A model generated the notes under the pieces. That model was not told where the DNA came from. It made no database searches and saw only the letters and a program-made list of their open reading frames with translations. Shown in pieces: positions 28,399 through 57,280 of a stretch of 64,000 nt of DNA (position 1 is its first letter; every line of letters begins with the position of its first letter). The translations under genes and the position numbers were made by a program. The DNA lies in the NCBI RefSeq assembly GCF_016859285.1, contig NC_053407.1:21347715-21411714 (forward strand), read 5' to 3'. Origin of the DNA: Xiphias gladius (lineage: Eukaryota > Chordata > Actinopteri > Istiophoriformes > Xiphiidae).

Positions 28399-29553
28399 AA
28401 CTTTGGCTTAAGGATGTGCTCTATAGTCATGCTTCATCAGTGGAGTCTGGCTGTGTTCTTGCTGTGCTCCCCAGTGACTCTTGATGGGAGACCAGTTGAT
28501 GCACTTAGTAGCAGAACGTGAGTTATTTTTTACATTCATTTTGAAAGAATAGAAAAATAAATAAATGTTACGCAATATGGAACTTTATAAATTGAGAACT
28601 AGTTAATAATTAAACATGGTGAAGCAAAATATTGCTGTTTCCTGATTTCGAAAACACAACCACAGTTTACCTGTACAGATTAAAGTAAGGTACAGGAGGT
28701 TTTCTCTATTTCAGCTCTGGCTTTTTTGAGGTCTTGAGCTCACACTAGTGATGGCTCTCAGACACTTGTTTATGCTGCCACCTACTGTACTGAGGTTTCA
28801 TGGAGCCTGAGTTTGAATTTCGGCTGCCGGCACTTCTAAAACTGTTCCGAACATAAACTCAATGCCACAGTATCATATGATTAAATTGCATCAAATTGCA
28901 ACAAGGGAAAAAATGAAAAAGATAATTATGAGGCTTTGTTGGGGCTAACTCAGAACTGAGAATTTGCTTGATTGTTTCACTGGCAAACTAAGAGAAATCA
29001 GACTGAGCAACAGAAATTAAAACAAGTTTCTAACAGACTAAGAAAAAAGTGAACCATGAACTGTAACTGCTCTTATTAAGGGGTGCTTGTATCTAAGCTC
29101 AAAAGAAGCTTTCTGTTTTCCGTACATGTTGATCTGACTCTGTCTCACTGTTTTGCTTTAAGGAGGAGGTCAGTGAGCCACGCCCAGCTGATGCATGACA
29201 AGGGCCGCTCCTTGCAGGAGTTCAAACGTCGCATGTGGCTGCAGGAGCTGCTGGAGGAGGTGCACACAGCCGATGAGCGAGCGCCACCCCTGCAGAGTGG
29301 AACCCCGAGCCAAACCTTCAGTGGGAATGCTCTACACCAGAAGCCCCCAGGGGCCACCAAAAACCTCCCTGACAGATTCAGGCTGGACAGAGAGGGCCCT
29401 AACCTGCCCCAGGAGACCAACAAGTCTCTGGCTTATAAGGACCAGCCACTTAAAGTGGCCACCAAGAGGAAAAAAAAGGTGAGGTTAGGCCGGCGTAGAG
29501 AGAATGACAAGAAGCGGAGGCGGGCACGGTCTATCACAATGAAGGAGCCATAA
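28399..29553 (+). CDS. pthlh: Parathyroid hormone-like hormone (PTHrP), two coding exons
   Basis: The product is the secreted hormone PTHrP, which in vertebrates acts on PTH receptors in skeleton, calcium handling and development. Coding exon A runs from the ATG at 28414 to 28517 (acceptor 'TTATTCAG' ending at 28398, donor 'AAC|GTGAGT'). Coding exon B runs 29163-29553 (acceptor 'GCTTTAAG'). The junction codon is AC+G, and 104+391 nt gives 164 residues. Residues 1-23 look like a signal peptide with hydrophobic 'LAVFLLC'. A dibasic site R36-R37 precedes mature 'SVSHAQLMHDKGRS' at residue 38. A basic, nuclear-localisation-like segment 'KRKKKVRLGRRR' and then 'DKKRRRARS' lies near the C-terminus, and 'LPQETNKSLAYKDQPLK' matches the conserved PTHrP mid-region. 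Teleosts have two pthlh copies; which one this is cannot be decided. A 5' untranslated exon probably exists upstream. Confidence 0.93.
28518..29162 (+). other. pthlh: pthlh intron
   Basis: A 645-nt intron with GT at 28518 and AG at 29161-29162 interrupts the Thr codon just before the Arg-Arg cleavage site. An intron close to the prohormone cleavage site is known for PTH-family genes. A frame open upstream of the acceptor, starting ATG at 29083, is intronic. Confidence 0.85.
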
Positions 29554-33687: not shown

Positions 33688-34611
33688 ATGGCTGTTCCCA
33701 ATACGTATGGGCTGATCTTTGCCTGTACCTGTGGAGTGATCCTGGGCATTGGACTCTGCGCCAATCTGCTGGTGTTCTCTCTGTTTGCAAAGTACAACAC
33801 ATTGCGTAAGAACTGCCTTGACATCTTGCTACTCAGCATGACTCTGGCCGACTTCCTCACCCTCCTGCTCATCCCCTTCACCCTGCACTCTGCCGTCAGC
33901 CACTCCTGGCCTCTGGGCGACACCTCCTGCAAGGTCTACCAGTTCCTGCTGGCCTTTAGCCTGGCAGCCAGCACCTATTCACTGTGTGCTGTGTCCATGA
34001 CCCGGGCCATGATCATCACCAACCCGTACCAGCCGCCAACCATGGACCTGGTCATCCTTATGTTTGCTCTGGTCTGGGCCCTCAGCTTCTTCATCAGCCT
34101 GCCGCTGCGAATGTTTGCCAACAAGGAGAGCGTGGGCCCGAGCCTGGCAAACTTCACCTTCTGCCTTCCAACCATTCATGAGCACCACTACCAAGTGGTC
34201 CTAAGCCAGTTTGTACTTTACTACTTTGTTCCAATGCTGGTCATCGCCTTCAACTATGTCCGTCTGGCTCTTTTTCTCCACAAGAGCCCCGTAATGTCGG
34301 TGTCCAGTGCCAGGAACACCCGCCGAGCCTCCGTCATGGTATTCTTGGCTGCTGCTACCTTTTCAGTGTGCTGGCTGCCTGGTTATGTGCTGGAGCTGTG
34401 TGTGTACCTGGGGCTGTATCACCATGGACAGGCTTGGGAGATGTTCTACTTTATCTGTACTGTGCTCCAATACCTGCACCCCTGTGTCAACCCTGTGCTC
34501 TATGTGTTGCTCTCTAAGCGCTATCGCCACAGGAGGGCAGCCTGGCTCTTCAGCTGTAACAGGAACAGAGTGCAGCCGCAGGTCATCAGTGTCACCACAG
34601 ACAGCTTTTAA
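33688..34611 (+). CDS. Class A G-protein-coupled receptor, galanin/GPR151-like
   Basis: A 307-residue seven-helix membrane receptor in a single exon. Helix 1 has 'GLCANLLVF' with N26; helix 2 has 'LSMTLADFL' with D55. C81 and C159 can form the conserved extracellular disulfide. The end of helix 3 reads 'SMTRAM' (105-107), where most family members have D/E-R-Y. Helix 6 has 'SVCWLPGY' (226-233) and helix 7 'NPVLY' (268-272). N155-F-T is a glycosylation sequon before C159. The helix 6-7 region resembles galanin-type peptide receptors by eye; the ligand is unknown and no symbol is assigned. The N-terminus before helix 1 is only about six residues, unusually short, so translation may start in an upstream exon I could not identify. 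Neighbours are pthlh upstream and an intergenic region downstream. Confidence 0.85.
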   Translation: MAVPNTYGLIFACTCGVILGIGLCANLLVFSLFAKYNTLRKNCLDILLLSMTLADFLTLLLIPFTLHSAVSHSWPLGDTSCKVYQFLLAFSLAASTYSLCAVSMTRAMIITNPYQPPTMDLVILMFALVWALSFFISLPLRMFANKESVGPSLANFTFCLPTIHEHHYQVVLSQFVLYYFVPMLVIAFNYVRLALFLHKSPVMSVSSARNTRRASVMVFLAAATFSVCWLPGYVLELCVYLGLYHHGQAWEMFYFICTVLQYLHPCVNPVLYVLLSKRYRHRRAAWLFSCNRNRVQPQVISVTTDSF

Positions 34612-49890: not shown

Positions 49891-51327
49891 ATGACCGTGG
49901 TGTCCCAGGAGAACCACGACGAGAGTGTGGTCGTTACTCCATTGCTGCAAGATGCTGCTGACTTGGAACCGGCGGACCAGGAGCGCAGCGAGAGGGTAGT
50001 CATCAACATCTCAGGTCTGCGTTTTGAGACTCAATTAAAGACCCTCTCCCGCTTCCCGACCACGCTCCTGGGAGACCCGCGTAAAAGGATGCGTTTCTTT
50101 GACCCGCTGAGAAATGAATACTTCTTTGACAGGAACAGGCCGAGCTTCGATGCCATTCTCTATTATTACCAGTCGGGAGGGCGGCTTCGGAGGCCCATGA
50201 GTGTACCCGTGGATATTTTCCTGGAAGAAATCAAGTTTTATGAATTTGAGGAAGAGGCCATAGAGCTTTTCCGAGAGGACGAGGGCTTGGCGAGGGACGA
50301 GGTGCGCCCGCTGCCTACCAACGAGTTCCAACGCCATTTATGGCTCCTGTTTGAGTATCCAGAGAGTTCAGGACCGGCGCGGATAATTGCCATTGTGTCA
50401 GTTATGGTTATTTTGATATCCATTGTTATATTCTGTTTGGAGACGCTACCCGAGTTTAGAGAAGTCCCTGCGGTGCTGGACAACCACGCCAATGGAAGTG
50501 CTCACGGCAAAGCGCCCAGCCCGTTCACAGATCCGTTCTTCCTGTTGGAGACACTTTGCATTGTGTGGTTCTCTTTTGAATTCACCATGAGGTTTCTCTC
50601 GTGTCCCAGCAAAGCAGCCTTCTTTAAAAACATCATGAACCTGATCGATGTTGTGGCTATAGCTCCATATTTCATCACCCTGGGCCTTGATCTTGCAGAG
50701 CATCAGGGCAGCAGTCAGCAGGCTGCGTCTCTGGCCATACTGAGGGTCATCCGTCTGGTCCGTGTTTTTAGGATTTTTAAACTGTCCCGGCACTCCAAGG
50801 GTCTCCAGATTCTCGGCCAAACGCTTCACGCAAGCCTCAGGGAGTTGGGACTGCTCATATTCTTCCTGCTCATCGGAGTGATTTTATTCTCCAGTTCGGT
50901 TTATTTTGCAGAAGTAGAAGACCCGGAGTCTGGATTTTCAAGTATACCTGATGCGTTTTGGTGGGCTGTGGTGACAATGACCACAGTTGGTTATGGTGAC
51001 ATGTGTCCCTCTACCATTTGGGGGAAATTCGTTGGATCTTTGTGCGCCATCGCCGGAGTCCTCACCATAGCTTTACCGGTCCCTGTTATAGTATCCAATT
51101 TCAATTATTTCTACCATAGAGAGAACGAGGAGGAGGAAAATATCCAGTACGTACACGTGACTTGTGGGCAGGAGAAGCAACCCTCCTTTGATGAATGCGA
51201 TTCAAGCAAAAGTAGCCAGTCGCTCTCCAAAACTGAGTCCTACCAGGGAAGCGACGACCTGGAAACTCTGACATATCCAAACACAAACCCACTGGAGACA
51301 TACACGGGGAAACTGACAGATGTATGA
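49891..51327 (+). CDS. kcna6: Voltage-gated potassium channel, Shaker type, Kv1.6
   Basis: A 478-residue pore-forming Kv1 subunit; four subunits form a voltage-gated K+ channel in the plasma membrane. The T1 tetramerisation domain spans about 34-128 ('[14 protein letters not shown]'). S1 starts near 165. The S1-S2 loop has the sequon N201-G-S. S4 carries R285, R288, R291, R294, K297 and R300. The selectivity filter is TVGYGD (365-370), S6 has '[18 protein letters not shown]', and the C-terminus 'LTDV' fits a PDZ ligand. The post-S6 phrase 'QYVHVTCGQ' resembles Kv1.6 ('QYTHVTCGQ') rather than Kv1.1, 1.2 or 1.5, and the position before kcna1 agrees with human KCNA6-KCNA1. It is shorter than human Kv1.6 because of short N-terminal and S1-S2 regions. 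Unusual: C372 after GYGDM and W377 in place of Gly. The coding region is intronless, as usual for Kv1 genes. Confidence 0.85.
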
Positions 51328-55810: not shown

Positions 55811-57280
55811 ATGACCGTAGTAGCAGGAGATAACATGGACGAGACCTCGGCTGTTCCTGGCCACCCTCAGGACACCTACCCTCCAGACCACAATGACCAT
55901 GAATGCTGCGAGAGGGTGGTCATCAACATAGCCGGTCTCCGGTTTGAGACGCAGTTGAAAACTCTCTCCCAGTTTCCAGAGACGTTGCTGGGCAACCCCA
56001 AAAAGCGGATGCGGTACTTTGACCCTCTGAGAAACGAGTACTTCTTTGACAGAAACCGCCCCAGCTTTGATGCCATCCTCTATTACTACCAGTCTGGTGG
56101 TCGGCTGAGAAGACCAGTGAATGTCCCTTTGGATATGTTCTCGGAAGAAATCAAATTTTACGAGCTGGGAGTGGAGGCGATGGAGAAGTTTCGTGAGGAT
56201 GAGGGTTTCATCAGGGAGGAAGAGCGCCCTTTACCTGAGAGGGAGTTCCAGCGTCAGATTTGGCTCCTCTTCGAGCACCCAGAAAGCTCAGGCACCGCCA
56301 GAGGGATTGCCATAGTGTCTGTGATGGTGATCCTGATTTCAATAGTCATATTTTGTTTAGAGACTTTACCACAGCTGAAAGAGGACCCAACAAGTCGAAT
56401 AGTGGGGAACTCTACTATTTATTACAAGCCAAATATCCTCACTGACCCCTTCTTCGTCATTGAGACACTCTGTATAATCTGGTTCTCCTTTGAGTTGATA
56501 GTACGCTTTCTGGCGTGCCCAAGTAAACCGGCATTCTTCAAGAACATGATGAACATGATCGACATAGTGGCTATCATCCCGTACTTCATTACACTTGGCA
56601 CCGAGCTGGCTGAAGACCCAGACAACGAGGGGGTGGGGGAGCAGGCAACATCTCTGGCCATACTCAGGGTGATCCGCCTGGTCAGGGTGTTTAGGATCTT
56701 CAAGCTGTCACGACACTCCAAAGGACTTCAGATTTTGGGGCAGACCCTCAAGGCCAGCATGCGAGAGCTGGGACTGCTGATCTTCTTTCTGTTCATTGGA
56801 GTCATCTTGTTCTCCAGTGCTGTCTACTTTGCCGAGGCAGAGGAGCAAGGATCCTACTTTGGCAGCATCCCGGATGCATTTTGGTGGGCTGTTGTGTCAA
56901 TGACAACTGTGGGCTATGGGGACATGGTCCCAGTCACTATAGGAGGCAAGATTGTAGGATCTCTGTGCGCCATCGCCGGAGTGTTGACAATTGCGCTCCC
57001 AGTGCCTGTCATTGTGTCCAACTTCAACTACTTTTACCACAGGGAGACCGAGGGAGAAGAGCAGGCCCAGCTGCTCAATGTCAGCAATCCCAACATCCCC
57101 TCTGAAACCAACTCAAGCCGCCGTAGCTCATCCACCGTCAGCAAGTCAGAGTACATGGAGATTGATGGAGACATAAACAATAGCATCGACAACTTTAGGG
57201 AGGCAAACCTCAGAACTGGCAATTGCACTATAGCCAACCAAAACTGTGTAAATAAAAGCAAGCTGCTTACAGATGTTTAG
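55811..57280 (+). CDS. kcna1: Voltage-gated potassium channel, Shaker type, Kv1.1
   Basis: A 489-residue Kv1 subunit of low-threshold neuronal and axonal K+ channels, able to co-assemble with other Kv1 subunits. The T1 domain spans about 35-130. The sequon N200-S-T lies in the S1-S2 loop. S4 has R286, R289, R292, R295, K298 and R301. The filter is TVGYGD (366-371). The C-terminal part, with '[16 protein letters not shown]' and the end '[14 protein letters not shown]', is diagnostic of Kv1.1 and supplies a PDZ ligand. Length agrees with human Kv1.1 (495). The coding region is one exon. An in-frame TGA at 55703 with no intervening in-frame ATG supports this start. V373 stands where human Kv1.1 has the tyrosine that sets external TEA sensitivity. 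Teleosts may have a and b copies; which one is not decided. It lies 4.5 kb after kcna6 on the same strand. Confidence 0.95.

Follow-up and report, generated by a model that had tools for sequence, protein, structure and literature searches.

The stretch of swordfish (Xiphias gladius) DNA analyzed here, 64,000 nucleotides long and referred to below as the window, corresponds to C8:21347715-21411714 of the 690.8-Mb genome. It contains two neighboring genes for Kv1 potassium channels, the first of which has a sister on another chromosome. The features discussed are as follows.

49891..51327, + strand: kcna6-like Kv1 channel gene, a single-exon intact open reading frame (ORF) of 478 amino acids, with L009 as its sister
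50983..51000, + strand: selectivity filter TVGYGD, residues T365-D370
51004..51006, + strand: TGT codon of Cys372, directly after GYGDM, at the Shaker T449 position
51010..51012, + strand: Ser374, which is Val in the sister L009
51019..51021, + strand: TGG codon of Trp377, a position that is Gly in 12 of the 14 Kv1 genes of the genome
51028..51030, + strand: Phe380, which is Ile in the sister L009
55811..57280, + strand: kcna1-like Kv1 channel gene of 489 amino acids, the cluster neighbor of window kcna6
56927-56929, + strand: Val codon GTC of the kcna1-like gene, at the position equivalent to Cys372
G000:C2:1310947-1312386: L009, the sister Kv1 gene (the other kcna6 copy)

The protein encoded by window kcna6 has the T1/BTB domain and the six-segment ion-transport domain of a Kv1 channel (BTB_2 PF02214, E 3.3e-27, and Ion_trans PF00520, E 6e-52, in the domain search), and its best relatives with solved structures are Kv1.3, Kv1.2, and Shaker. 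A TVGYGD filter and PVPVIV in S6 are typical Kv1 motifs. Both are present in window kcna6, and every one of the 14 Kv1 genes found in the genome has PVPVIV. With no more than one mismatch allowed, the pattern GTNGGNTAYGGNGAYATG has two sites in the window, whereas 100 shuffles gave a mean of 0.00; the second site is the kcna1-like gene at 55811-57280. An earlier note on this DNA had placed a Cys directly after GYGDM, and this was confirmed, TGT at 51004-51006 being codon 372 of the intact 478-residue frame. Window kcna6 is an ordinary Kv1 gene with a natural Cys at its outer mouth. Elsewhere in the window are an ORF of the parathyroid hormone family (29083-29553, +; PF01279, E 2e-51) and a single-exon ORF of 307 amino acids for a rhodopsin-type GPCR (33688-34611, +; PF00001, E 5.6e-39).

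A genome-wide search with the pattern GGNTAYGGNGAYATG returned 70 sites, all of which were read. Two lie in the window and 68 in other loci, and 14 of the 70 are Kv1 genes, which were named from cluster order, the tree, and motifs. The genome protein search, in which 89 of 102 first-look candidates were scored, gave 69 matches. Its top 16 rows are the same 14 Kv1 genes at 65-100% identity, with both kcna7 genes split over two exons; among the rest, the longer matches have at most 52% identity, whereas a few fragments some 50 residues long reach 56-60%. The best match of window kcna6 to another gene is L009 on C2, at 78% identity. At the Cys372 position, the 14 genes have Cys (four), Val (three), Tyr (three), His (two), Lys (one), or Arg (one). 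The four Cys carriers are window kcna6, the kcna6 copy L009, and the two kcna10 copies, L012 and L015 (on C18 and C21), both of which read GYGDMCPITMGG, with GYGDMC. Human KCNA10 also has Cys at this outer-mouth position. Among the 70 sites, another 15 pore frames look channel-like when judged by eye, and none of these has Cys (eight Val, six Tyr, and one Phe); a search of this kind would miss channels with an intron-split or divergent GYGDM. When viral contigs were searched for relatives, four pattern matches were obtained, of which none was confirmed. Carried by four genes of the genome, the outer-pore Cys looks like a real trait of the family, probably an old one, and not the oddity of one gene.

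In solved structures of Drosophila Shaker the corresponding stretch reads GYGDM-T-PVGVWGKIVGSL, so that Cys372 aligns with Thr449, as had been proposed, and Trp377 with the native Shaker Trp. The picture of a singular channel was consequently not borne out, given Cys in four of 14 Kv1 genes and the Shaker residue at 377. Among solved chains of Kv1.3, 7ej1 has His at the position equivalent to Cys372; two further chains have Asn and Val and were taken for mutants. The Trp had been described as replacing a usual Gly, which is true against 12 of the 14 Kv1 genes of the genome but not against Drosophila Shaker, where Trp is native, nor against the kcna7 copy L019. These two occurrences rule out Trp377 as a unique change. 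The kcna7 pair is itself split at this position, with Trp in L019 (C9) and Gly in L030. After GYGDM, human Kv1.1 and Kv1.6 have Tyr, and human Kv1.2 has Val. The Tyr of human Kv1.6, which is no criterion of orthology, is absent from both kcna6 copies, where Cys is found. The two kcna1 copies also differ at this position, which governs TEA block, with Val in the window gene (55811-57280) and Tyr in L010 on C2; this predicts that the two Kv1.1 channels differ in their sensitivity to TEA.

In a tree of 14 rows, none of them a named KCNA6 sequence, window kcna6 pairs with L009 at 92/87, short of the starred level of 95/80, apart from kcna1, kcna2, and kcna3. Support for the other pairs is 100/100 for kcna1, kcna2, kcna10, and kcna7 and 97/96 for kcna3, and kcna10 falls in a separate clade with kcna5 and kcna4 (98/97). 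The name kcna6 comes from cluster order and from a VTCGQ tail, a feature of human Kv1.6. The kcna1-like gene lies 4.5 kb downstream of window kcna6 on the same strand. Gene order is kcna6-kcna1 in the window, kcna6-kcna1-kcna5 on C2, and kcna3-kcna2-kcna10 on C18 and C21; neither the genome pattern search nor the protein search found a third Kv1 gene on C8, and no kcna5 lies beside the window pair. The available part of the account by Hoegg and Meyer (PMC1978502) describes tetrapod KCNA clusters in the order 6-1-5 and four clusters in teleosts, with KCNA5a lost. The genome fits this plan, which marks it as that of a teleost. The window gene is therefore probably the kcna6 of a 6-1 Kv1 cluster, most likely the 'a' cluster, from which kcna5 is missing. 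Like teleost kcna6 of the KCNA 6-1-5 clusters, it has a single exon and adjoins kcna1 in the same orientation, and the lack of kcna5 alongside agrees with the description of the 'a' cluster. It stands apart from its sister L009 in its fast evolution, in Trp377, Ser374, and Phe380, and in its N-terminal part, where the two consecutive Cys that L009 has immediately ahead of the T1 domain are replaced (C32R, C33S).

How old the Cys is can be approached through the two kcna6 copies. Their synonymous sites are saturated (pS 0.779; dN 0.157), and their nucleotide identity is 0.70 and 0.75 in two 40-codon windows spanning Cys372, compared with 0.71 overall. Nothing here supports the idea that one copy recently converted the pore of the other, since the pore is about as similar as the whole gene. 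With synonymous saturation and no conversion tract, the pair is old and the Cys probably predates the duplication; parsimony on the two copies would likewise place one Cys, probably, in the kcna6 ancestor. Each copy may also have gained its Cys independently, because Tyr to Cys takes a single transition (TAT to TGT). The kcna10 genes belong to another clade, so their Cys either arose on its own or goes back further. The TGT codon of the window is known from the assembly alone, which could be held to favor a sequencing error or a pseudogene. Yet L009 has TGT as well, on another chromosome and among nearby synonymous codons that differ, and the window frame is open for 478 codons with saturated synonymous change and low dN. 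A Cys shared by four of 14 Kv1 genes can hardly come from faulty sequencing, nor is it peculiar to the window gene; its presence in L009 and both kcna10 copies makes such an error very unlikely, and we regard error or pseudogene together as scarcely credible.

The two kcna6 copies have not changed at the same pace. With kcna3 as outgroup, 39 changes fall to window kcna6 and nine to L009, a roughly fourfold difference (p = 1.5e-5), and with kcna2 as outgroup the numbers are 41 and 10 (p = 1.5e-5), while the control kcna1 pair gives eight and 10 (p = 0.81). Branch lengths in the tree agree (0.51 for window kcna6 and 0.11 for L009). When the kcna7 genes were left out, 227 sites did not vary among the other 11 genes, and window kcna6 was altered at 11 of them, including G377W. 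This is the highest count of 12 rows, with kcna4 (8/224) and kcna5 (7/223) not far behind and L009 at 2/218. With kcna7 included, in a simpler alignment, it was altered at one of 128 invariant sites, and G377W is absent from that count because L019 also has Trp. Judged by these comparisons, Trp377, Ser374, and Phe380 are part of a general acceleration of window kcna6, and such private changes may alter its function beyond what Cys372 predicts. Cys372 itself is outside this acceleration, as it is common to the slow sister. The faster pace and the private changes at otherwise invariant sites are what would be expected if the position simply tolerated many residues, the Cys had no selected role, and the window copy were under weaker constraint; the six different residues at this position in 14 Kv1 genes fit as well. 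However, the residue is the same within five of six duplicate pairs (kcna2, kcna3, kcna6, kcna7, and kcna10), only kcna1 differing, which suggests constraint, and the window ORF is intact. We consider neutral drift an unlikely account.

The earlier note had also named the position as a site of C-type inactivation and of Cd2+ action, rightly so according to the parts of three sources that were available. In Shaker T449C, a Cd2+ bridge between subunits favors the C-type inactivated state (PMC6093707, citing Yellen 1994), and KcsA Y82C acts like Shaker T449C (PMC6093707). C-type inactivation is described as depending critically on T449 in Shaker and on H451 in Kv1.3 (PMC9271579). Compared with the wild type, inactivation is 13 times faster in T449A and 1600 times faster in T449A/K456M (PMC4899724); the equivalent of Lys456 is kept in window kcna6 as Lys379. 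The available portions of these three sources give no TEA affinity and no metal-free inactivation rate for Cys at this position. For mammalian-type Kv1.6, the excerpts consulted list a TEA IC50 of 0.92 mM (PMC6213216) and, in a guide, a pIC50 of 2.2 (PMC5650668). The accessible parts of PMC7143316 and PMC3141671 hold nothing on the residue equivalent to Cys372. A search for the exact sequence string returned zero papers, and no report of a natural Cys here was found in the literature searched, a weak negative with figures and most subscription papers outside its scope. Window kcna6 resembles the engineered Shaker T449C in having Cys at the same outer-mouth position and, as in Shaker, Trp five residues on. 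Unlike in T449C, the Cys is a natural residue of a vertebrate Kv1.6.

The reading we prefer, to which we give a probability of about 0.75, is that of an ordinary Kv1 subunit with an ancestral outer-mouth Cys, weak TEA block, metal-sensitive homomers, and no need for a dedicated role. Window kcna6 would make a Kv1 delayed-rectifier subunit with Cys as its outer-mouth residue, which the kcna6 ancestor would already have had when the gene was duplicated. External TEA block would be weak, as the four Cys that surround the mouth offer no aromatic ring, and these residues would help to set the rate of C-type inactivation. In homomers, Cd2+ or Zn2+ could bridge the Cys residues and favor the inactivated state in the manner of the engineered Shaker T449C, and mixing with kcna1, kcna2, or kcna3 subunits would dilute this effect. 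Weak TEA block and metal-sensitive homomers may reasonably be expected from Cys372, and the earlier proposal of metal or redox sensitivity with low TEA sensitivity is plausible. The Cys can be explained without invoking a dedicated physiological role in metal or redox control.

In such a role, Cys372 would be the target through which extracellular Zn2+ or oxidants set the C-type inactivation of native Kv1.6 and likewise of Kv1.8. The recurrence of the Cys in both copies of kcna6 and both of kcna10, its presence even in the fast-evolving window gene, and the engineered precedent of Shaker T449C (PMC6093707, in the part available) are all consistent with a switch of this kind. The kcna10 (Kv1.8) copies resemble window kcna6 in GYGDMC but belong to a separate clade. 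Zn2+ is also described, in the accessible part of PMC11639194, as modulating how Kv1.5 and Aplysia Kv1 undergo C-type inactivation. It acts there through a turret His (Kv1.5 H463 and Aplysia Kv1 H382), not the residue after the filter, and the window channel, unlike those two, has no His in the turret. The authors of a paper on Kv1.8 in hair cells raise the possibility that K+ affects gK,L by relieving C-type inactivation, and the same paper calls Kv1.8 subunits non-inactivating; the words cysteine and TEA are absent from its searched text. In the available part of a rat survey, Kv1.8 is listed as non-inactivating, on two studies, and as silent as a homomer (PMC6710402), which argues against a simple inactivation role in Kv1.8. 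Heteromers with non-Cys subunits, moreover, would blunt the effect. On balance, we judge a physiological switch distinctly unlikely. More speculative still, and improbable, is the idea that a natural 'T449C' ring of teleost Kv1.6 and Kv1.8 predates the teleost duplication, that in the animal it would limit the availability of K+ channels in response to zinc or redox state, and that it was kept despite the rapid evolution of one Kv1.6 copy at other sites.

Work on C-type inactivation has a classic probe in the engineered T449C channel. With a T449C-like Cys native to four Kv1 genes of one fish, natural channels are at hand for tests of metal- and redox-dependent inactivation. The same finding suggests that mammalian TEA sensitivity should not be carried over to the Kv1 currents of fish.
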